NCBI GenBank assembly: GCA_947176455.1
Contig: CAMWQQ010000041.1
Span: 1 to 10,478, forward strand
Length of the DNA: 10,478 nt
Direction: 5' to 3'
DNA from: an uncultured Odoribacter sp.
GTDB lineage: Bacteria; Bacteroidota; Bacteroidia; Bacteroidales; Marinifilaceae
Positions 59-10,274 of this stretch are shown here, piece after piece. Below the pieces are notes generated by a model that did no database searches, was not told where the DNA came from, and saw only the letters and a program-made list of their open reading frames with translations. Each line of letters starts with the position of its first letter. Position 1 is the stretch's first letter. Both the position numbers and the translations under genes were made by a program.

Positions 59-1459
59 TTATTCTTTTCTATAAATCATATCCACAATCTCTCCTCCAAT
101 TCCGGTCTTTTCCCATTCCAAATCCCAATCCACCAACTCTTCTTCTGGATTATCCCCGTCCAAACCGGACACGAGAAAACTTTTTACGCACCCTTTTAAT
201 TTCCCACCGTCAACAGCATCATAAGCGACATAAAATTTCTTTTCATCGGGGCTGAACAGCATGGACTTGATTACGTCTCCGGACTTTCCTACCGTATATT
301 TAGGAGTAGTCGGAAAATTCGCATTACTCATGTAATCATAGATAAAAATCTTATTCCCTACCGAATAGTACAAATGAGCCATATTCTGTCTGGCTACAAA
401 GCGACTGGTCTCGTCAATGCCCGTACCTTCCGTGGACACAGTTGAATAATGTACACCCTCTTCTGGATTGACATACACGATTTCCGGACTTTCTCCTTCT
501 TTCCGAACAATCAACAATCCCTCCTCTTCATGATTACAGCAAACACAATCCATTAGTTTTTTTCCGGCAAACACCTCTTCTGCACATACCGGGGAGGCAT
601 TTTCATCTAACAATACCCCCTCCGTATCGTTATAGAAATAAGCATCCGACTTACAAATCAAAGCCTTAGGTGCTACTCGGGCACCTGGATAAAACATTCT
701 GAACATCTGCTGGAAAAAATTCATAAACGAATCCTGTGTTCCGTCCATTTCTATCATCTCCCCGTCAGCAAAACAATACAAGGTCATTGTACCGTATGCA
801 GGTCCTGACATATAGTCGAAATGTTCTACGGGATAATCCGGAAACATATAAACCGCTTCCATGGTCTGCACATTCACTTTCACGTAGCGAATGGGATCCA
901 CTGTCGCAAAATACAGATGATTGCCGACTTGCGTTGCCTTCACCGGAGTACGCCCCAAAGGAAAGTCCGGATTGTTTAATTTATAGGCATCCAACTGAAA
1001 TTCTGCATTCCGCTTATCTTCCCGTTTGAAAGAAATCATCGTTCCATCGTCAGTTTTACTCATCACGACCAATCCGACTTGATAAGGAGAAGTCACCAAC
1101 AAAGTAAAATCCATAAATGCCGAACCGTCTTCGTTACTCACCACCAAACGACAAGGGAAATTATCCTGATCCGGCGGAGTCAATTCTTCGCACACAACCC
1201 TCAAATCTTTTTCAGTGGAAACCGTTTTATAATTGATATCCCATCTGTAAGTCAGAGGTTTTTCTTCGTTTTCCTGAACAATTTCAGGACATGGAAGAAC
1301 AAATTCAGCCCATTGGTCCGTCCGGAAACTATTTTTTTCCGGATCGAATTTTATAGTAATTCGGGATATTTTATCCGTTCCCAATTCTGTTGAATTATCA
1401 ATACAGGAGCCAAACAAAACAGCCCATAGCATCAAAAAAAGGTATTTATTATTTTTCAT
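59..1459 (-). CDS. PKD-like family lipoprotein
   Basis: This 466-residue protein starts with a lipoprotein signal peptide whose probable lipidated residue is Cys19 (context LFGSC). The ATG at 1459 is preferred over one 24 bases upstream because it puts the positively charged MKNNK directly before the hydrophobic segment and avoids overlap with the previous gene. Residues about 30-125 resemble the PKD-like family of Bacteroidetes: the TYRWDI strand is at 70-75, and the characteristic SPYQVGLVVMS linker is at about 124-134. The rest looks like short repeated beta strands, for example SPDEKKFYVAY near 403-413, and may be propeller-like. Residues 305-308 carry a C-V-C-C cluster. Proteins of this family sit next to DUF4843 lipoproteins in SusC/SusD operons and are presumed surface accessory proteins; no activity is known to me. 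The start is 16 bases after the upstream stop. Family assignment is by motif and context and is fairly secure; ligand and role are unknown. Confidence 0.85.
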   Translation of the reverse strand: MKNNKYLFLMLWAVLFGSCIDNSTELGTDKISRITIKFDPEKNSFRTDQWAEFVLPCPEIVQENEEKPLTYRWDINYKTVSTEKDLRVVCEELTPPDQDNFPCRLVVSNEDGSAFMDFTLLVTSPYQVGLVVMSKTDDGTMISFKREDKRNAEFQLDAYKLNNPDFPLGRTPVKATQVGNHLYFATVDPIRYVKVNVQTMEAVYMFPDYPVEHFDYMSGPAYGTMTLYCFADGEMIEMDGTQDSFMNFFQQMFRMFYPGARVAPKALICKSDAYFYNDTEGVLLDENASPVCAEEVFAGKKLMDCVCCNHEEEGLLIVRKEGESPEIVYVNPEEGVHYSTVSTEGTGIDETSRFVARQNMAHLYYSVGNKIFIYDYMSNANFPTTPKYTVGKSGDVIKSMLFSPDEKKFYVAYDAVDGGKLKGCVKSFLVSGLDGDNPEEELVDWDLEWEKTGIGGEIVDMIYRKE

Positions 1460-1475
1460 AGCGTCAATCTTTAAA

Positions 1476-2186
1476 TTAATCAAAAGGAAACCACATATTG
1501 GGCATAAATTGCCAATCCGAAGTCAGCTCCGGATGCTCCTTCGCATAATCGACCACCTCATGTTTAAAGACATACATCACTTTCAAATAATTACTAAAAA
1601 CATACATCTCTTCCAAAGGTCCACCGAAATAAGCAATCAATTGCTGATACATCCCCGGATGATACAAAGCATAAGCAATAAACACATTATTCCACCAGCC
1701 CGGCTCTTCCAGAAAATCATTAAAAGTAACCACCGCTCGAAGATTTTGCTTGCTCCCCAGCTCAAAATCCTCGTTAGGCACCAAATTCAGCACAATTTTA
1801 TAAACATCATTGTAATCCTTTGACAGATTCTCCCGAATCAATTCTATCGGAATATAGGCATTTACGGAATCCTTCAAAAAGATGTATTCAGATTGCAAAG
1901 GAGCGAAATGCACCCCTTCCTCCGCCGTGGATGCCGTATCGAGTTCCACCTTGAATTTCAGTTCCCGGGTTGTTTTCAATCCCATCAGTCGAACCGGCAC
2001 CTGAACGGTGTGCCGTTGACAAGCCACCACCTTGTCTCCAAAGGTAAAATTTAGACTATCCGTTTCTGCCGGAAAATAAATCCGATAAACGTTATCATAG
2101 AATCCATCCTCGTTATCATCACAAGCACAAAATATGCCCATGAAAAATAACGCAGTCAGAAAAAAGTATTTTTTTACGTTGTTCAT
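1476..2186 (-). CDS. DUF4843 domain-containing lipoprotein
   Basis: This 236-residue protein has a clear lipoprotein signal peptide, MNNVKKYFFLTALFF, ending at a probable lipidated Cys22 (GIFCAC). I chose the ATG at 2186 because it directly precedes the signal peptide and leaves a 7-base gap after the SusD stop; the in-frame ATG at 2213 would overlap susD and add an unneeded N-terminus. The mature part looks like a beta-sandwich: a YRIYF strand at 34-38, a long strand TVQVPVRLMG at 60-69, a Calx-beta-like AEEGVHF at about 88-94, and PGWWNN at 162-167 leading into a C-terminal half rich in Tyr and Phe. Size, layout and position after SusD match the DUF4843 family of Bacteroidetes. The biochemical role of that family is unknown; a surface-exposed helper to the SusC/SusD complex is inference from context. 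Confidence 0.85.
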   Translation of the reverse strand: MNNVKKYFFLTALFFMGIFCACDDNEDGFYDNVYRIYFPAETDSLNFTFGDKVVACQRHTVQVPVRLMGLKTTRELKFKVELDTASTAEEGVHFAPLQSEYIFLKDSVNAYIPIELIRENLSKDYNDVYKIVLNLVPNEDFELGSKQNLRAVVTFNDFLEEPGWWNNVFIAYALYHPGMYQQLIAYFGGPLEEMYVFSNYLKVMYVFKHEVVDYAKEHPELTSDWQFMPNMWFPFD

Positions 2187-2193
2187 AGTATCT

Positions 2194-3690
2194 TTATTTA
2201 TTTGTATAACCAAATTCTTTCTCTTCGTCAGGCCAAGGCAACACTGCGATTTCCGGAGTCATGACAATTTTATTCTCATTATTATAATCCATAAATGACG
2301 CATTCGTGCGTTTGTAGTCTAGAAATATCTGTCCTTCGCCCCACAATTCTTTTACTCTTTCGCTTTGAAGCGCCTGTCGAAATTTTTCAACCGTATTGAC
2401 CTGTGCAATGTCCAAGGCAATGGTCAAGCCTCGGCTTCTCCGCACTTTATTCAAATAGTCCAAAGCCTTTTGAGGGTCTTTTTCATAAACTGCCTCTGCT
2501 GCAATATAATACATTTCAGGCAGACGAATCAAGCTTACCCCCTTGGTATTCTCTTTCTGCAATTCCACATCTTTCGGATCTGAAGCGTTCACATTCAAAA
2601 AACGGACAAAACAAGGCGACTTCTGACTATCTCCTACACCATCCGCGCTTCCCTCTCTGCTACGCATAGCAAAAAAATGATCCCAACGATAATCATGGTT
2701 GTCAGCCGTCCAGCTCACATCCTTATAAATTCCCTCATAATCAATACGGGGTCTCAACCAATTAAAATAAGTAGCCGAATACCGCAAAAATTGGTTATAT
2801 AATGGCTCATACAATTTGCCTGTCGACAATCCCCAAATGATTTCTATTCCTCCCGGATATTTTTTTACTTCGGACAATTCCGTCGGCACGGAAATCAAAC
2901 GATGCAAAGAAGAGGCGATTACTTTTTCCGCATAAAACCGAGCGCTGTCCAATTGCACTCCTTCCGCCTGAAATACCCTTGCCTTGATCGCATAAACTGC
3001 AGATAAATTCAGAAAATTATAACGGGCTTCCCGATATTCAGTTGAAACATTGACCGTATCACCTGCCAAATAATACTGGGCAACATCCAAATCTTTCAGA
3101 ATATTCCCGTAACACGCTTTCAAGGAAAATAATTCCTTATTCTTCAAATCAAAAGAATAAGCATAAGGGATACCTCCGGCTTCCGGATTGTCTTGTATAT
3201 TGGCGCTAAAATAACGCAATATGTCAAAGTGCAGGAAAGCCCGCAACGCGTAAGCCTCCCCCTTGATTAATGTCAAATCAGGATGTTTGCTCAGATTCTC
3301 TTTCTCAATATTCTCCAAAACATTATTGATATAAGAGATCACTCTGTAAGTTTCTGACCAAATTGTATTGATGCACTCCTCTACCTCCGGATAAGCATAG
3401 TCGTAGGATTGGACTTTTAAAACCAAGTCTTCTCCAAAAACCTCGGCATGAGGATTGTAACACAAATGTGCCAGTTGATCGGCAAATCCCCAAGTCAGGT
3501 TTTTCCCGTATAAGTCACCGGAAGCCAAACTAGCATAAATTCCATACATGGCATCCATATACCCTCTCGCATCTTCAAACATTTTGTCATTGACAACCTC
3601 GCCCTTCGGTTGTATATCCAGGAAATGGTCACATCCGGCAAAAGCAAATCCCGCCAATATGCCAACTACAATATTTTTAAACTTTTTCAT
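2194..3690 (-). CDS. SusD/RagB family nutrient-binding outer-membrane lipoprotein
   Basis: This 498-residue surface lipoprotein forms the lid over its SusC partner and captures substrate outside the cell. Its signal peptide ends at Cys20 (FAFAGC), followed by DHFLDIQPKG, the usual start of mature SusD-like proteins. Family features in order are the N-terminal SusD-like helical region, with GEAYALRAFLHFDILRYF at about 144-161 (TPR-like helices); a variable central region; and the C-terminal RagB/SusD domain with RLPEMYYIAAEAVY, the helix DYLNKVRRSRGL and the signature RVKELWGEGQIFLDYKRT. Length is normal for the family and there is no sign of truncation. It begins 13 bases after the susC stop, so it is cotranscribed. 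The substrate cannot be read from sequence. SusD proteins of loci with STN-type SusC and FecR often serve host-derived glycans, but the DUF4843/PKD-like companions here leave the ligand class open. Confidence 0.96.
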   Translation of the reverse strand: MKKFKNIVVGILAGFAFAGCDHFLDIQPKGEVVNDKMFEDARGYMDAMYGIYASLASGDLYGKNLTWGFADQLAHLCYNPHAEVFGEDLVLKVQSYDYAYPEVEECINTIWSETYRVISYINNVLENIEKENLSKHPDLTLIKGEAYALRAFLHFDILRYFSANIQDNPEAGGIPYAYSFDLKNKELFSLKACYGNILKDLDVAQYYLAGDTVNVSTEYREARYNFLNLSAVYAIKARVFQAEGVQLDSARFYAEKVIASSLHRLISVPTELSEVKKYPGGIEIIWGLSTGKLYEPLYNQFLRYSATYFNWLRPRIDYEGIYKDVSWTADNHDYRWDHFFAMRSREGSADGVGDSQKSPCFVRFLNVNASDPKDVELQKENTKGVSLIRLPEMYYIAAEAVYEKDPQKALDYLNKVRRSRGLTIALDIAQVNTVEKFRQALQSERVKELWGEGQIFLDYKRTNASFMDYNNENKIVMTPEIAVLPWPDEEKEFGYTNK

Positions 3691-3703: not shown

Positions 3704-6700
3704 TTAGAACGTTGCACTAATATTTAACTGAAAACTCCTGGCAAACGGATAATCAAATCCCCGTTCCTGTTTCACCGTCGATACCCGAAAAAGGTCATTG
3801 GTCATAAATTCCAACCGCAGGCGACTTAAATACAAACGATGAGATATCGCTTCCGGAAAATCGTATGCCAACGACAAACTCCGCATATTCAACGTATATT
3901 CGTCTTCAATAAAACGGCTAGTCTGTTCAGGAACAGAAGTGTCCGCAATATTCTTGTATTTAACATAGTCGCCCGTTTCTTTCCAACGGCTGTCAAATAC
4001 CCGCCGGTCAGCATTATCACGAGGATTGGCTCCTTCCACACGAGTTACCAGCGTTTGATTATAAATGGTCGATTTCAATTTATAATCGAACATCATATTT
4101 AACGAAACTCCTTTATAGGTCAAATAAGAACTGAACACTCCATAAAGTTTGGGATCGCTGTCTCCATATACGATTTTATCCTTATAGTCATAAATAAAGG
4201 TTGGCTTGTTATCTCTTCCTATGTATATTTCTCGTCCCGTTGCCGGGTCAATGCCACCAGATTTCACAACCTTAATGGCACTCATGGATTCCCCTTCCTC
4301 ATACAACGGACGAGGCGTTCTTGATTTGTCCGCATTCTGTTTCTCATTTTCAGCTTTCAAGGCATTACTGATTTTCTTAATCTTGTTGGTATTGTGCGTT
4401 GCCGTCAATGAAAGCGTCCAATCCCAGTCTTTATTTCGAATTGCAATAACACGAGTGCGCAACTCTACACCTGTGTTGTCGACTTTCCCTAAATTCTCTT
4501 TGGCTGTCGTTACTCCGACCGAAGGAGCTTTAGTTACATCCAGCAACAAATTATCCGTAATCCTTTTGTAATAATCAAACGTCAAATCCAAACGATTGTG
4601 AAACAAATTAATGTCCAAACCTGCATTATAATTCAAAGTTCGTTCCCATTTTAAATCAGGATTGGCTATTGCCATCGGTATTGCCCCGATTCCTTTGTCA
4701 TAAATCAAATCGGCTTGGTACTGATAAGTGGTGACAGCCATATAGGCAGGGAAACTGGCATTACCCAAATAACCGATACTGGCCCGCACTTTCAACCGAT
4801 CCGTCGAATTGGCCGCAAAGAAACTTTCCTTGTGAATATTCCAACCGACACCGGCACTCCAAAAAGGAGCAAAACGCTCGTCCGCACCGAATTTTGAAGA
4901 CCCTTCGTAACGCAAGGAAAAATCAGCAAAATAACGGTCCTTGTAAATGGCATTGGCATTCAGAAAACCACCCATGGACCGGTCGATTGTCTCTGAGCCA
5001 TTCGGAGAACCGGAAGTGGGATATTTTGAAGCAAAAGAGGGATGAGCTAATTTATCGGACAAAATACCGATTCCTCTATATCCATTACTATTTTGGTTTG
5101 TCGCCTGCAAATTACCTCCACCGACAAGACTCAATAACGTACCGTTTTCAAACACTTTATTATAAGTCAGTAGCAACTTGCCTTGATAGTCCATGGAGCG
5201 ATTATTGACAACATCTATCGAACCGGCTTCTTCTACTGAAGAAGAGGCAAACTGCTTGGAATCCGGAGAAACAAAAACTTCTTTATTATTTTTGTATTTC
5301 GTCAATGAAAACGATCCTTCCAAACGCAATCCCTCTACCAACTGAAATTTAAAATCCAGCACGTCATAGAGGCTGAAATTCTCTCCCGTATTATAACTAC
5401 CCAAAGTCGCCTCATAAAGCGGATTCTCTTTGTTATAATGCAAATCATTATTCAGCGAACCGTCCAAATTATAAGCCCGGTCGTAAGGATTCTGTTTTAC
5501 AAAGCCACCAAACGACCCGTAAGGAGATTCATGGTTCGTCGTAGAAGAAATGGTCATCGTATTGGACAAATAAACTGCCTCCCCTTTATTATAGGACAAC
5601 TTGAAAGAAAGAGAATAACGCTGACGATCAGACCCTTTCATCACTCCCCGGTCGTTGCCGTACCGGAGTCCTAAATTGTAACGAATATATTCATCGCCAC
5701 CATATATGGTCAGATTATGGTTGTTGACAAATGAATTGCGCAACGGATAAGACATCCAGTCAGTATTTACTCCTTCCCGTATACGCTGGAATATTTCATT
5801 GTAATCTTTGTCCAACTGGTACTGCTGTGCATTTGACTTTGACGTATACAAACCCGCTAAACGTTCGTATTCCAACTTGTCTTTTGCATTCAACAAGTGG
5901 TAATCACTCAAATCCGGCACCGTCAGCGAAAAATTGCCGTTATAAGAAACTTTCATCTTACCGCCCTTCATGGGTTTGGTCGTAATCACAATCACTCCAT
6001 TGGCCGCCTTTGCCCCGTAAAGAGCGGATGCAGAAGCATCTTTCAATACCGTAACAGACTCTACATCATTGATATCCATGTCAAATACGTAATCGGCAGA
6101 CACCTCTGAACCATCAACAATAAAAGTCGGCACATTGGCTCCCTCGGTAAAACTGCTACGCCCCCGCACCAATATTTCAGGACGCACATTCGGATTAGAG
6201 CCCTGCGCATTATTTTCCACCAGCAACATTCCCGGCACAAAAGCCTGCAAACTTTGTAATATATTCTTTGTGCCCACACTCAATAACTGTTCCTTGCTCA
6301 CAGTCTGCGCCGCACCTGTAAAACTGGCTTTGGATTTCGCCGTGTAACCTGTAACCACGACATCATCCAACGTCTGTACTTCCGGATATAGCACGATTCG
6401 ATAGTCCGTCTTGTTTTCCGCAATCTTTTGTTCATGACTCTTCATTCCGACAAATGAGAAGACCAGAACCACCGATTCACTCTCAGGAACATTGATAGAA
6501 AAATTTCCTTCCGCGTCTGTAACAACCCCCAAGGCAGTACCTTTTAGAAGAATCGACACCCCAGGCAATGTCTCTCCCTTATCATCTACTACTTTTCCCG
6601 TAATTTTGAGTTCTTTCACTTGGGGCGAAGTTTTCTCTTGTCGAAAAACGACAATACGGTCATTTAAAATCTCGTAATAAAAAGGCAATTCTTTTAATGC

Positions 6701-6973
6701 CATATCCAATACCTCTTCAAGAGTATTGTTACGAGCAACCCCGTTCACGACATAATCGCGTACGTCTTCATGATTGAAAATAAATTTCAGACTTGTCTTC
6801 TTCTGAAGATTCTCCATAAACTGGACCAGACTGGTCTGTTCAAATTCCAAATCGAACCGCTTTTGTTGCGACCAGACTTCCGCCCTCAATGCAGAGCACC
6901 CCAGTAGCACAATCAGGCACATGAGTTTGATTTTTATCATGCCCCAAATGACTTGTTGAATTGTTTTTTTCAT
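3704..6973 (-). CDS. SusC/RagA family TonB-dependent transporter with STN signalling domain
   Basis: This 1089-residue outer-membrane importer draws energy from TonB. Residues 1-31 are a signal peptide. The STN domain (secretin/TonB short N-terminal domain) spans about 38-112, with FEQTSLVQFMENLQKKT and the ending NDRIVVF. It is the part that contacts a FecR anti-sigma factor in the periplasm. A carboxypeptidase-D-regulatory-like domain follows at about 122-198 (GKVVDDKGETLPGVSILLKG). The conserved TLDDVVVTGY segment at 201-210 precedes the plug, which carries LKDASASALYG at 310-320. The rest is the 22-strand barrel, ending in a terminal Phe (NISATF), as expected for assembly by the Bam machinery. 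Length is normal for an STN-bearing SusC, with no frameshift. The presence of STN together with the upstream sigma and FecR genes indicates trans-envelope autoregulation. A candidate antisense RNA covers its leader. Substrate is unknown. Confidence 0.97.
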   Translation of the reverse strand: MKKTIQQVIWGMIKIKLMCLIVLLGCSALRAEVWSQQKRFDLEFEQTSLVQFMENLQKKTSLKFIFNHEDVRDYVVNGVARNNTLEEVLDMALKELPFYYEILNDRIVVFRQEKTSPQVKELKITGKVVDDKGETLPGVSILLKGTALGVVTDAEGNFSINVPESESVVLVFSFVGMKSHEQKIAENKTDYRIVLYPEVQTLDDVVVTGYTAKSKASFTGAAQTVSKEQLLSVGTKNILQSLQAFVPGMLLVENNAQGSNPNVRPEILVRGRSSFTEGANVPTFIVDGSEVSADYVFDMDINDVESVTVLKDASASALYGAKAANGVIVITTKPMKGGKMKVSYNGNFSLTVPDLSDYHLLNAKDKLEYERLAGLYTSKSNAQQYQLDKDYNEIFQRIREGVNTDWMSYPLRNSFVNNHNLTIYGGDEYIRYNLGLRYGNDRGVMKGSDRQRYSLSFKLSYNKGEAVYLSNTMTISSTTNHESPYGSFGGFVKQNPYDRAYNLDGSLNNDLHYNKENPLYEATLGSYNTGENFSLYDVLDFKFQLVEGLRLEGSFSLTKYKNNKEVFVSPDSKQFASSSVEEAGSIDVVNNRSMDYQGKLLLTYNKVFENGTLLSLVGGGNLQATNQNSNGYRGIGILSDKLAHPSFASKYPTSGSPNGSETIDRSMGGFLNANAIYKDRYFADFSLRYEGSSKFGADERFAPFWSAGVGWNIHKESFFAANSTDRLKVRASIGYLGNASFPAYMAVTTYQYQADLIYDKGIGAIPMAIANPDLKWERTLNYNAGLDINLFHNRLDLTFDYYKRITDNLLLDVTKAPSVGVTTAKENLGKVDNTGVELRTRVIAIRNKDWDWTLSLTATHNTNKIKKISNALKAENEKQNADKSRTPRPLYEEGESMSAIKVVKSGGIDPATGREIYIGRDNKPTFIYDYKDKIVYGDSDPKLYGVFSSYLTYKGVSLNMMFDYKLKSTIYNQTLVTRVEGANPRDNADRRVFDSRWKETGDYVKYKNIADTSVPEQTSRFIEDEYTLNMRSLSLAYDFPEAISHRLYLSRLRLEFMTNDLFRVSTVKQERGFDYPFARSFQLNISATF

Positions 6974-6980
6974 AAATTTG
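6973..6980 (+). promoter_or_regulatory. Bacteroidetes -7 box (TAAATTTG) antisense to the susC start
   Basis: TAAATTTG matches all six fixed positions of the Bacteroides -7 consensus TAnnTTTG. It points away from susC and shares its first base with the susC start codon. The upstream -33 element is weak: the closest TTG is at 6953-6955, with a 17-base gap, slightly short of the usual 19-21. A start site about 6 bases downstream would give a transcript of some 70-75 bases ending at the terminator at 7030-7060. The word alone could occur by chance in AT-rich DNA; the terminator in the same direction makes it more credible. Confidence 0.5.
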
Positions 6981-6999
6981 TTTGGTTAATAATTAAACT

Positions 7000-7025
7000 T
7001 TAATTTCCCTTGCTTGGGAAGTTAA
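7000..7025 (+). repeat. Inverted repeat / hairpin in the susC leader
   Basis: Arms TTAATTTCCC (7000-7009) and GGGAAGTTAA (7016-7025) pair over 10 positions with loop TTGCTT. Nine pairs are Watson-Crick; the remaining one is U-G in plus-strand RNA and C-A in minus-strand RNA. It lies 5' of the terminator hairpin and would be the 5' stem of the proposed antisense RNA. It could also be a DNA operator with the core TTCCC-N6-GGGAA. Confidence 0.6.
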
Positions 7026-7029
7026 TCGA

Positions 7030-7060
7030 CGGAATGCATTGCCGTGCATTCCGTTTTTAT
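7030..7060 (+). terminator. Intrinsic terminator, plus strand, in the fecR-susC gap
   Basis: CGGAATGCA at 7030-7038 and TGCATTCCG at 7045-7053 form a perfect 9-bp stem around the 6-base loop TTGCCG, followed immediately by TTTTTATAT. This is a textbook rho-independent terminator for plus-strand transcription. In the minus direction the stem is not followed by a U-tract, so it should not stop the operon transcript, although the hairpin can still form there 17 bases past the fecR stop codon. No plus-strand protein gene ends here, which points to a non-coding transcript. Confidence 0.75.
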
Positions 7061-7070
7061 ATAATCAGGT

Positions 7071-8237
7071 TTATCTTTTTCCCACCACCAAAGTTTTACC
7101 ATCCAAGCGAAACCACACTTTATGAGTTTTCTCCAACAATTCCATGACCTGAGTCAACGAATCGTTTCTGTTAAACCAAGCTGTAAAATGGAAATTCCTT
7201 ACTTCCGAATCTTGATAGAAAATATCCATGTCATACCAGCGAGCCAAGTCCTCGAGAATGATTTGCAACGGACATTCCCGAAAATCAAAAATACCGTTAC
7301 GCCAGGAAATCTCCCGTTCCGTATCCACCGGACAAATTTCAAATTTATCTCCGCGCAGACGTCCTTGCTGCCCCGGCAACAGATGGCGGATTTCTCCAGC
7401 ATGCTCCAACTGCACTTTCCCTCTCACCAAAGTCACCGACTTGTTGTTCTCCGTATAAGAACGCACATTGAACTCTGTGCCAAGTACCCGGATATCAAAA
7501 GAGGAAGTTCGAACGACAAAAGAAGAAAGCATATCCCGCGCAACTTCAAAATAAGCCTCACCTCTCAATAAGCTCACCTCTCTGGAATTTCCGACAAAAG
7601 CCACCGGATATTTCAATCGGCTATCTGAATTCAACCACACTTTAGTTCCGTCAGATAATGTCACTTGACACTCTCCACCCCGGGGTACCTCTATTTCATT
7701 CCAAACCAATTGGCGGATGCCTGCTCCTCCCTCATACGACAAATTTCCCCTATGATTCTGAACTATCACATTTTCCTTTTCCATAAAAGCAGAATCATTC
7801 AAAGCGACACCTAAAGATACGGTCCGACCATCGGACAAAGTCAGTAACGCCAACGGTCTATCAGTAGCTATTTTAGATACAAGAGGCTGAACTGAGACAA
7901 TGGAAGAGGAACGCCAAAACCACAAACATCCGACGCCCACAAGCAATAGCAAAGAAGCTGCTATTCCTAACCACCTGCGCCCGATTCGTCTGGAATGAAC
8001 ACGATAGCCGCAAATTTCAGCAATCTTGTTCCAAGATTTCTCCGCATCACCGGTCTGATAATATACGTGGTATTCTTTACTGCTAAATTTCCGGGAACAA
8101 ATTTGTTCATACAAGCGCTCATTGTCTTCAGAAGCCTCCCGCCAATCCGACAATTCACACTCTTCTTCTGGCAAAAGCACTTCTCCCGACAAATATCTGT
8201 GTAGCAAATCCGACAAACGAATATAATCCCTAATCAT
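7071..8237 (-). CDS. FecR family anti-sigma factor with DUF4974 domain
   Basis: This 388-residue inner-membrane regulator holds the ECF sigma factor inactive until it receives the signal from the STN domain of SusC. Residues 1-87 are the cytoplasmic sigma-binding part, including SDWREASEDNERLYEQI. A single membrane segment spans about 88-108 (WLGIAASLLLLVGVGCLWFW) and is preceded by basic residues RRIGRR. The periplasmic FecR domain covers about 182-278, with the hallmark VPRGGECQVTLSDGTKVWLNS, LRGEAYFEV and VLGTEFNVRSY. The C-terminal DUF4974 domain is at about 318-386, with LQIILEDLARWYDMDIFY. The DUF4974 fold resembles STN and is thought to help in the contact with the transporter. It follows the sigma gene by 64 bases and precedes susC by 97. 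The start codon has an A8 tract just upstream, typical of A-rich Bacteroidetes initiation regions. All domains appear intact. Confidence 0.95.
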   Translation of the reverse strand: MIRDYIRLSDLLHRYLSGEVLLPEEECELSDWREASEDNERLYEQICSRKFSSKEYHVYYQTGDAEKSWNKIAEICGYRVHSRRIGRRWLGIAASLLLLVGVGCLWFWRSSSIVSVQPLVSKIATDRPLALLTLSDGRTVSLGVALNDSAFMEKENVIVQNHRGNLSYEGGAGIRQLVWNEIEVPRGGECQVTLSDGTKVWLNSDSRLKYPVAFVGNSREVSLLRGEAYFEVARDMLSSFVVRTSSFDIRVLGTEFNVRSYTENNKSVTLVRGKVQLEHAGEIRHLLPGQQGRLRGDKFEICPVDTEREISWRNGIFDFRECPLQIILEDLARWYDMDIFYQDSEVRNFHFTAWFNRNDSLTQVMELLEKTHKVWFRLDGKTLVVGKR

Positions 8238-8301: not shown

Positions 8302-8820
8302 TCAAATAAAAATGAAGTAGAAATATTCTCGCAATTCCTTGCGCAATATCTTATAAGCATTCTTTTTGTGGAATTTTACCGCATCAATAGAGATTTTCAA
8401 CAAATCGGCTATTTCCTGATTGGTCTTTCCATCCAAATTCAGTAATATAATTTTACGTACCTGTTCCGGCAAACGACGGATCGCACCAAATAGCAATCTT
8501 CGGGTTTCTTCTTCAATAATGGCTCCCATACAATCGCTTTCAGTCGCCCCGACCGAAAGATGATTCGTCGCATAAAGCGTCTCCACCTTTCTATGCCGAA
8601 TACTATTCAAAGCCTTTCCGCGCACAGTCGTATACAAATAACTTCTTACAGAAAAACTATCCGAAAAGTTATCCCTATTTTCCCATAAGGCAACAAAAGT
8701 ATCTTGTATTATCGACTCACACTCTTCCATTTCCAAGCCGAAACGTCTCGCAAAGAAGACCAAAGCATGAAAATACTCTTCAAACGTGTCAGAAAAATTC
8801 ATTGTATAATTCCTCTTCAT
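8302..8820 (-). CDS. ECF RNA polymerase sigma factor (Bacteroidetes sigma-70 family)
   Basis: This 172-residue sigma factor has only regions 2 and 4, as in the large Bacteroidetes ECF expansion. Region 2 lies at about 13-80, with ESIIQDTFVALWENRD for core binding and SYLYTTVRGKALNSIRHRK for -10 recognition. Region 4 is at about 108-162, with LPEQVRKIILLNLDGKTNQE leading into the helix-turn-helix (EIADLLKISIDAVKFHKKNA), which reads the -35 element. The protein should direct transcription of susC and the genes after it when released by the adjacent FecR protein. The start at 8820 is tentative: an in-frame ATG at 8802 (MNFSDTF) has AAAAGGAA upstream and fits the usual family start as well or better. 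The tail after region 4 (REYFYFIFI) is short and hydrophobic, which is ordinary. It is the first gene of the minus-strand operon. Confidence 0.95.
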   Translation of the reverse strand: MKRNYTMNFSDTFEEYFHALVFFARRFGLEMEECESIIQDTFVALWENRDNFSDSFSVRSYLYTTVRGKALNSIRHRKVETLYATNHLSVGATESDCMGAIIEEETRRLLFGAIRRLPEQVRKIILLNLDGKTNQEIADLLKISIDAVKFHKKNAYKILRKELREYFYFIFI

Positions 8821-9010: not shown

Positions 9011-9068
9011 AAATTTCCCCTCAAAAGGGAAGAAATTGCCCACATTTGTCCCCTTTGAAGGGAAATTT
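9011..9068. repeat. Paired quasi-palindromes / 20-bp inverted repeat upstream of the ATPase gene
   Basis: The 20-base arms 9011-9030 and 9049-9068 are inverted repeats matching at 18 of 20 positions. Each arm holds a near-palindromic 16-mer: TCCCCTCAAAAGGGAA (9016-9031) and TCCCCTTTGAAGGGAA (9049-9064). These are also direct repeats with 13 of 16 matches. Centre-to-centre spacing is 33 bases, about three helical turns. The right copy sits just upstream of the -7 box at 9072, which suits a repressor operator. The repeat structure is seen directly; its function is inference. Confidence 0.7.
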
Positions 9069-9071
9069 GTG

Positions 9072-9079
9072 TATTTTTG
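9072..9079 (+). promoter_or_regulatory. Candidate promoter (-7 box TATTTTTG) of the ATPase gene
   Basis: TATTTTTG fits TAnnTTTG and ends 19 bases before the ATG at 9099. TTTG words occur at 9045-9048 and 9054-9057, but their spacings (23 and 14 bases) bracket rather than match the usual 19-21. Its position argues that translation starts at 9099 and not at the in-frame ATG at 9036, which lies upstream of the promoter word and between the repeat arms. Confidence 0.5.
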
Positions 9080-9098
9080 TGGCAAAAAGACAGCAGAT

Positions 9099-10274
9099 AT
9101 GATAGATCTTAAATTGGTCAGCTATATGCAGGAGGAGCTCCAACGCACTCCCACCAAATTTCAGCGGTATATGTATGACAAGATAATATGGACGGATCGT
9201 ATGATCGGTCTTGTCGGTCCACGCGGTGTCGGAAAATCCACGTTGGTCAAACAACACCTGCTGAACCACGAAGAACATACAGATTGGCTGTACGTATCTG
9301 CCGACCATACTTTTTTTTCCAACCATTCCCTGACAGACCTTGCCGATGAGTTTGTCAAAGAAGGAGGCAAACACCTCATCATCGATGAAATCCACAAATA
9401 CGAAAGCTGGTCAAGGGATCTGAAACAAATTTACGACACCCACGAATCCCTGCAGGTGATTTTCACTGGCAGTTCCATACTGGATATCCGAAAAGGGACA
9501 GCAGACCTCAGTCGGCGAGTCCTGATATTTGAAATGCAAGGACTTTCATTCCGTGAATATCTTGAACTGTTTGAAGACATTCGGCTACCTATTTACACGC
9601 TCGAGGAACTCCTTGCTCACCAAGTAAAGCTTCCCACAGATTTTCATCCACTGCCACACTTCCGGCATTATCTGGCAAAAGGCTATTATCCTTTCAGCCA
9701 ACTGGACGGTTATGAAATACGCCTCCAACAAATTATGTCCCAAACCATTGAAGTTGACATTCCCCAATATGCAGGAATGAACGTATCTACCGCTCGCAAA
9801 TTAAAAAGAATGCTCCATATCGTGTCAAAATCCGCACCTTTCAAGCCCAGCGTTCTCAATCTGAGCAGCGAACTGAAAATCAGTAAAAATGACGTGCCGG
9901 ACTATATGCTATTTTTGGAAATGGCAGGTATGATAGGACAATTACGCGATGAGACAGGCGGACTGCGCGGACTTGGCAAAGTAGACAAAACCTACATTGA
10001 CAATACCAACCTGATGTATGCCCTGGCAGACGACCTCCCCAACATCGGCAATGTCCGCGAAACATTTTTCTATAATCAGATGCGCGTAAACAACGAAATC
10101 GTTTCATCCAAGGTGTCCGATTTCCGAATCGGAGACTATACATTCGAAGTCGGAGGAGCCAAAAAAGGCAAAAAACAACTCCAAGGAATGAAAAACGGCT
10201 TCATCGTGAGGGATGAAATAGAATATGGACACAATGAATTTATTCCCTTGTGGTATTTCGGACTAAACTATTGA
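9099..10274 (+). CDS. AAA_14/DUF4143-type ATP-binding protein
   Basis: This 391-residue cytoplasmic protein belongs to a P-loop ATPase family that occurs in many copies in Bacteroidetes and archaea. It has a Walker A motif GPRGVGKST at 40-48, a Walker B with adjacent acidic residue HLIIDEIHK at 92-100, a sensor-1-like VIFTGSS at 120-126, and SRR at 138-140 with a possible arginine finger. Residues about 230-285 look like a winged helix (VLNLSSELKISKNDVPDYML). The C-terminal part (about 318-391) resembles the nuclease-like DUF4143 fold, with ETFFYNQM and DFRIGDYTFEVGG. In a PD-(D/E)XK reading, D341 and E350 are present but the expected lysine is G352, so catalysis is doubtful. I prefer the start at 9099 because a promoter word lies between it and the ATG at 9036. 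Its physiological role is not established. The locus gives no link to the neighbouring uptake operon apart from shared intergenic DNA. Confidence 0.88.
   Translation: MIDLKLVSYMQEELQRTPTKFQRYMYDKIIWTDRMIGLVGPRGVGKSTLVKQHLLNHEEHTDWLYVSADHTFFSNHSLTDLADEFVKEGGKHLIIDEIHKYESWSRDLKQIYDTHESLQVIFTGSSILDIRKGTADLSRRVLIFEMQGLSFREYLELFEDIRLPIYTLEELLAHQVKLPTDFHPLPHFRHYLAKGYYPFSQLDGYEIRLQQIMSQTIEVDIPQYAGMNVSTARKLKRMLHIVSKSAPFKPSVLNLSSELKISKNDVPDYMLFLEMAGMIGQLRDETGGLRGLGKVDKTYIDNTNLMYALADDLPNIGNVRETFFYNQMRVNNEIVSSKVSDFRIGDYTFEVGGAKKGKKQLQGMKNGFIVRDEIEYGHNEFIPLWYFGLNY

Follow-up and report, generated by a model that had tools for sequence, protein, structure and literature searches.

The window, by which we mean the whole stretch of 10,478 nt analyzed here, comes from an uncultured Odoribacter sp. 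whose genome, at 2.04 Mb, is 68% complete. Its minus strand carries, as open reading frames with domain matches, genes for an ECF-type sigma factor (Sigma70_r2 and r4_2 domains; 8302..8820), the anti-sigma factor FecR (7071..8237), a SusC homolog with a plug, a TonB-dependent barrel and an STN/FecR_C-like N-terminal domain (3704..6973), a SusD homolog (2194..3690) and a DUF4843 protein (1476..2213), followed by a gene for a PKD_2-like protein (59..1483), whose score of 37.2 bits falls slightly below the Pfam cut-off of 39.2. A SusC/SusD pair is present in the window, and none of its seven scanned proteins was a glycoside hydrolase; the contig stops after the PKD-like gene. A PDB search with the DUF4843 and PKD-like proteins gave no credible relative. 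Past the sigma factor gene lies a gene for an AAA_14 ATPase (9036-10274, +). Elsewhere in the same genome one fecR match (L013, G000:C8:13501-14583) contains one in-frame TAA, and a genome of the same genus (G002, 4.4 Mb) holds 60 FecR matches, a very large sigma/anti-sigma complement for a single genome.

Between the fecR stop codon (7071-7073, -) and the susC ATG (6971-6973, -) lies a gap of 97 nt (6974..7070), which is the susC leader and the presumed target of an antisense RNA. On the plus strand of this region, TAAATTTG at 6973..6980 matches TAnnTTTG, the consensus that PMC7366714 and PMC9723704 give for the -7 box of sigma-ABfr type promoters. This word overlaps the ATG, as the first-pass annotation had noticed in describing a consensus promoter word that touches the susC start codon: the first T of TAAATTTG is the complement of the A in the ATG, and box and start codon share one base pair. 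Because the box spans -12 to -5 in PMC9723704, and carries the name "-7" in PMC7366714, we placed the predicted start of the antisense RNA at 6985..6987 (+), 5 to 7 nt past the box. A -33 TTTG element upstream of the box was not enriched among genes with a box (at most 7/87 at any single spacing), a point against the antisense reading.

The predicted RNA of about 72-76 nt (6985..7060, +) would match the susC leader with full complementarity over the stretch from about -12 to -87, with the start codon outside. On folding, its first hairpin (7000..7025, +) formed the ten pairs described earlier (7000-7009 with 7016-7025) around the loop TTGCTT. The intrinsic terminator hairpin (7028..7055, +), found both by scanning and by folding, stood at the top of the terminator scan list for the window, at -16.9 kcal/mol. 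The earlier description of a terminator with a run of five T held for the terminator itself and for the T-run (7054..7058, +); the stem, given there as 9 bp, was slightly longer, with 12 pairs (7028-7039 with 7044-7055), and positions 7029-7038 and 7045-7054 formed ten Watson-Crick pairs. The 75 nt from 6986 to 7060 folded into two hairpins with a minimum free energy of -29.2 kcal/mol, compared with -11.0 +/- 2.7 kcal/mol for 200 shuffled sequences (z = -6.8). We also found, in agreement with the first-pass annotation, that no plus-strand gene ends at the terminator: no plus-strand open reading frame of at least 80 aa ended within 900 nt upstream of it, the nearest ending at 5985.

Over the whole window these signals were no more frequent than expected, with 11 occurrences of TANNTTTG (10.1 expected), one of CATANNTTTG (0.55 expected) and 10 terminator-like sites (9.3 expected). 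With such counts at chance, the weight of the argument therefore rests on the joint position of the signals and on their recurrence in relatives.

Recurrence of box and terminator in fecR-susC gaps

We evaluated this recurrence in a first set of 111 loci fetched by FecR, after leaving out as repeats 29 loci from the window's own genome (L054-L082); susC followed fecR in the fetched flank in 98 loci, and in 13 it did not. CATANNTTTG stood on the antisense strand exactly at the first susC ATG in 51/98 gaps, and the box was found at this ATG in 14/19 gaps of the window's own genome, 15/28 of a sample with one locus per relative, 14/22 of a complete genome of the same genus and 8/29 of a phylum-wide sample. 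At a threshold of -9 kcal/mol or better, a terminator was present on the antisense strand in 57/98 gaps and on the sense strand in 9/98, the mean for shuffled gaps being 2.7/98. The antisense terminator accompanied 47 of the 51 boxes and occurred in 10 of the 47 gaps lacking one (Fisher p = 2e-13); as these paralogous loci are partly related to one another, Fisher values overstate their independence and p should be taken as a guide only.

In a wider set, to which more loci from the complete genome and the orthologs were added, and in which later ATGs were accepted as well if they were in frame and no more than 150 nt from the first, the box was found at 87/139 fecR-preceded susC genes, in 73 of these 87 at the first ATG. 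An order-wide sample with one locus per genome, where susC was missing at 2/25 loci, gave the box at 14/23, with a terminator in 13/14 loci with the box and 3/9 without. When all 157 distinct gaps were pooled, orthologs included, the start-codon TANNTTTG and the antisense terminator occurred together in 89, the box without the terminator in 8, the terminator without the box in 14 and neither of them in 46; sense-strand terminators were found in 15/157. Of the 27 pooled gaps shorter than 60 nt, four had the box and none the terminator. Counting against the antisense reading are the fact that the pair was seen in just 89/157 gaps, the phylum-wide figure of 8/29 for the box, and the 4/18 susC genes in the window's own genome that are without a box. 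One locus from another class of the phylum (L140) had a box and a strong antisense terminator (-23.0 kcal/mol) in its fecR-susC gap.

The box was rare at other translation starts. In 400 kb of a genome of the same genus, it was found at the first ATG of 3/225 open reading frames of at least 200 aa, two of these three being fecR-preceded susC genes, and at 7/225 when later in-frame ATGs were allowed. At fecR starts, with later ATGs also allowed, it occurred in 3/149, and susC genes without fecR within 400 nt upstream had the box in 1/8 cases and the terminator in 0/8. This distribution is not what a translation-start context would give.

The predicted RNAs of 79 loci had a median length of 76 nt (range 53-109 nt). 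Relative to the fecR stop codon, the T-run complement began at a median of 0 nt (quartiles -3 and 18), and at 34/79 loci it began inside fecR. The antisense gene thus tends to take up the whole interval between the susC start and the fecR stop; in the window, 12 nt separate the last T from the fecR stop codon.

Orthologs of the operon and covariation in the predicted RNA

Among the matches listed for 40 relatives, none of the FecR relatives exceeded 41% identity, and for this reason orthologs of the operon were sought through SusD, in 56 genomes of the family. This search returned eight loci at 46-60% identity, with a clear break before the next match at 38%. The order fecR-susC-susD-DUF4843-PKD was kept in 8/8 of them, and the best sigma factor match lay upstream on the same strand in 7/8 (on the opposite strand in L175). 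A ninth ortholog, with a sigma factor gene, fecR and a partial susC, was found in Ca. Odoribacter faecigallinarum (L231). The first-pass annotation had directed attention to related loci that keep these genes and lack the signals; the start-codon box and the antisense terminator were both kept in 8/9 orthologous gaps (7/8 of the loci found by SusD, plus L231), and the exception, L177, with neither box nor terminator, had a fecR-susC gap of just 36-39 nt. L171, the closest of the orthologs (70% SusC identity), had its box at in-frame ATG number two, from which point on its SusC is homologous to that of the window, and its RNA was predicted to form a first hairpin at the same place as in the window, with partly different stem bases.

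When the window RNA was aligned by MAFFT with eight ortholog RNAs, the terminator stems of two groups were, judged by eye, one column out of register, and we therefore restricted the counting of pairs to six of the nine rows. These six alike orthologs come from other genera of the family, one of them Sanguibacteroides. Among them 96.0% of cells were paired, compared with at most 50.5% when the structure was slid along the alignment, and the terminator stem accounted for all of the four pairs that had changed on both sides, a number reached in 3/500 shuffles. The first stem was invariant in this set and is uninformative there. These pair counts are modest: further pair types were not above those in shuffles (101/500), a slide of -2 gave three pairs changed on both sides, and RNAalifold run on all nine aligned RNAs, window included, recovered only six consensus pairs.

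Candidate antisense RNA, known systems and alternative readings

We consider it very probable, from signals read in the DNA, that the plus strand of the fecR-susC gap is a small antisense RNA gene of the DonS-like kind. The anatomy of the gap, its orthologs and its recurrence support the first-pass proposal, in which a sigma/FecR-controlled SusC/SusD locus has an antisense RNA facing the leader of susC; the recurrence adds much to the evidence that the first-pass annotation had. We infer the transcription of this RNA and its exact ends from the sequence, and repression of susC from the analogy with DonS; taken whole, an antisense RNA gene that lowers expression of the susC operon is the most likely explanation. 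In such a mechanism, the primary sigma factor would read the promoter whose -7 box overlaps the susC start codon, and transcription would head away from susC, cross the leader and end at the hairpin and T-run before the fecR stop. As long as the sigma/FecR switch stays off, the product of 72-76 nt, with its two hairpins, would most likely hold down the expression of susC-susD-DUF4843-PKD, either by pairing with the leader on the susC mRNA (with an effect on its translation or its stability) or by working against transcription of the leader. Because it would start 5-7 nt after the box, this RNA could not cover the start codon. The leader of the B. thetaiotaomicron susC gene BT_3983 is about 77 nt long by the numbering of PMC11697453, with position 72 at -6, and if this length held in Odoribacter the RNA would cover most of the susC leader.

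The closest known systems are DonS and its relatives. According to PMC11697453, DonS of B. fragilis is an antisense RNA that represses its cognate locus by a mechanism called unknown there. For B. thetaiotaomicron, PMC10994844 reports 32 annotated PUL-associated antisense RNAs, and Northern blots detected five such RNAs and later two more (PMC7366714, PMC10994844); in PMC7366714, 52% of the cis-antisense RNAs of this species have a canonical promoter for the primary sigma factor. Some of the antisense/PUL pairs are anticorrelated and some positively correlated with susC (PMC10994844), and repression is therefore not universal. The candidate resembles these RNAs in being short, in facing the 5' end of susC as a divergently oriented antisense RNA, and in its occurrence at many loci per genome, and on sequence evidence alone it has its own promoter box and intrinsic terminator. 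It differs from them in its host, Odoribacter, in its DUF4843 and PKD-like genes with no enzyme gene seen in the window, and in its slightly shorter predicted length, 72-76 nt compared with 78-128 nt for the DonS family (PMC7366714).

In PMC11697453, translation of susC is repressed by FopS RNAs that pair with its start region, which shows that susC leaders are open to RNA control. FopS and GibS of B. thetaiotaomicron resemble the candidate as small RNAs with terminator hairpins, FopS pairing at the susC translation start; they are described as acting in trans, through a seed and at the start codon, whereas the candidate is cis-encoded and its predicted first base lies some 12 nt before the start codon.

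Whether RNA pairing is the main mode of repression we regard as evenly balanced. CopA/CopT and hok/Sok are plasmid-type cis-antisense RNAs with loop-loop recognition; the U-turn has the form YUNR. Their likeness to the candidate is formal only, and consists of a structured antisense RNA to a leader together with an enrichment of U-turn loops on either strand. U-turn words occurred on one strand or the other in 37/74 terminator loops of the class (2/76 were dropped for loop size), compared with 19.9 +/- 3.6 in loop shuffles, and on the antisense strand alone in 16/74 compared with 10.5, a count reached in 25/500 shuffles. This enrichment points to loop-loop pairing, as a lead and not as proof. 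The apical loops of these terminators show two recurrent forms, TT at the start (22/74) and AA at the end (18/74), and an apical [AG]TG.T...CA[CT] was present in 18/76 terminators of the class and 0/33 gene-end terminators of the same genus.

A possible but less probable reading is that the gap acts by transcriptional interference, polymerase from the antisense promoter blocking or colliding with polymerase transcribing susC, and the short RNA being a by-product. Such interference would fit the recurrence of promoter and terminator positions while the body of the RNA varies widely among paralogs, and also an antisense gene that fills the gap, as any susC promoter within the gap must then sit inside it. 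When we looked upstream of the hairpin for a susC promoter shared among the loci, just a weak purine-rich bias was found. However, the two-hairpin fold goes beyond chance, and interference needs just a working terminator. DonS reportedly works when made in trans. It is also placed in a family of RNAs that negatively affect susC (PMC7366714).

We consider it improbable that the signals belong to the sense strand, with CAAANNTATG as translation-start context, the hairpin as an element of the susC mRNA leader, and no antisense RNA. A-rich start contexts are described for Bacteroidota (PMC7366714), and a TNAAC word near -20 (in the window TTAAC on the minus strand, 6985-6989) was enriched before susC regardless of the box (51/83 with it, 22/51 without, 36/225 in the control), but the box is almost missing from other starts and from susC genes without fecR, the terminator is found mostly on one strand (57/98 antisense, 9/98 sense), and a start context would not predict that box and terminator co-occur. 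The TNAAC word may be an element read by a sigma factor or a site for RNA pairing; a search for a second element at a fixed distance from this GTTAA/TNAAC word near -20 of susC found none. A coincidence of signals, or pervasive antisense transcription without function, is very improbable: although word and terminator counts over the whole window are at chance, and PMC7366714 cautions that some cis-antisense candidates may lack function, the position is kept in 8/9 orthologs and both signals recur in 89/157 gaps.

Membership in the trans-acting GibS/FopS family is extremely unlikely, since the full-length match to GibS (RF04182) is weak (24.1 bits, E 0.08) and far under the gathering score of 115 bits, which 0/40 relatives exceeded, no FopS was among the nine matches listed at E 10 or better, and the 5' word shared with GibS is the antisense of the susC start and expected at any such site. 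An Rfam scan of the window gave no family at its cut-off, and matches at relaxed thresholds (GibS, MicC, BjrC68 and others) all fell below theirs, BjrC68 matching the minus strand at E 0.001 with 20.9 bits where 39 is the cut-off. In the Rfam models GibS and BTnc231, the consensus 5' ends (UUUUUCAUAG... and UUUUUUUCAUAG...) resemble an antisense susC start (window 6963-7062, +), and RNAs of this type may be copies of antisense susC starts or may have originated from them. A weak GibS match in G002 (3503129-3503240, -) lies directly after fecR and resembles such an antisense RNA.

Geometry of the predicted antisense gene and its meaning

The antisense RNA gene that we favor most likely belongs to a known class, and what is new would be its host, the type of locus, its breadth, and the tight fit of promoter and start codon. 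The less expected feature is the geometry: one base pair belongs to both the box and the start codon, and the terminator in relatives typically meets the fecR stop. We found no description of the start-codon overlap in the available portions of PMC7366714, PMC11697453, PMC10994844, PMC9723704, PMC5061871 and PMC13370916, and one may exist in print. Box bases -7 to -4 and -1 can be changed while the protein is left unaltered.

SusC/SusD uptake loci are numerous in Bacteroidota, and sigma/anti-sigma pairs control many of them; functional study of the PUL antisense RNA class has been called for (PMC10994844). It could well be, although we would put the opposite on an equal footing, that throughout the order to which the window belongs, and in some cases beyond it, the start codon of fecR-preceded susC genes lies within a primary-sigma -7 box and an antisense gene fills the gap to the fecR stop. 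If so, the rule of CATANNTTTG at the start codon together with an antisense terminator would be readable from sequence in hundreds of genomes, and such a predictive rule would permit a survey of these RNAs without RNA data. The sigma/anti-sigma/SusCD module would in that case commonly include a built-in antisense brake, irrespective of the substrate.
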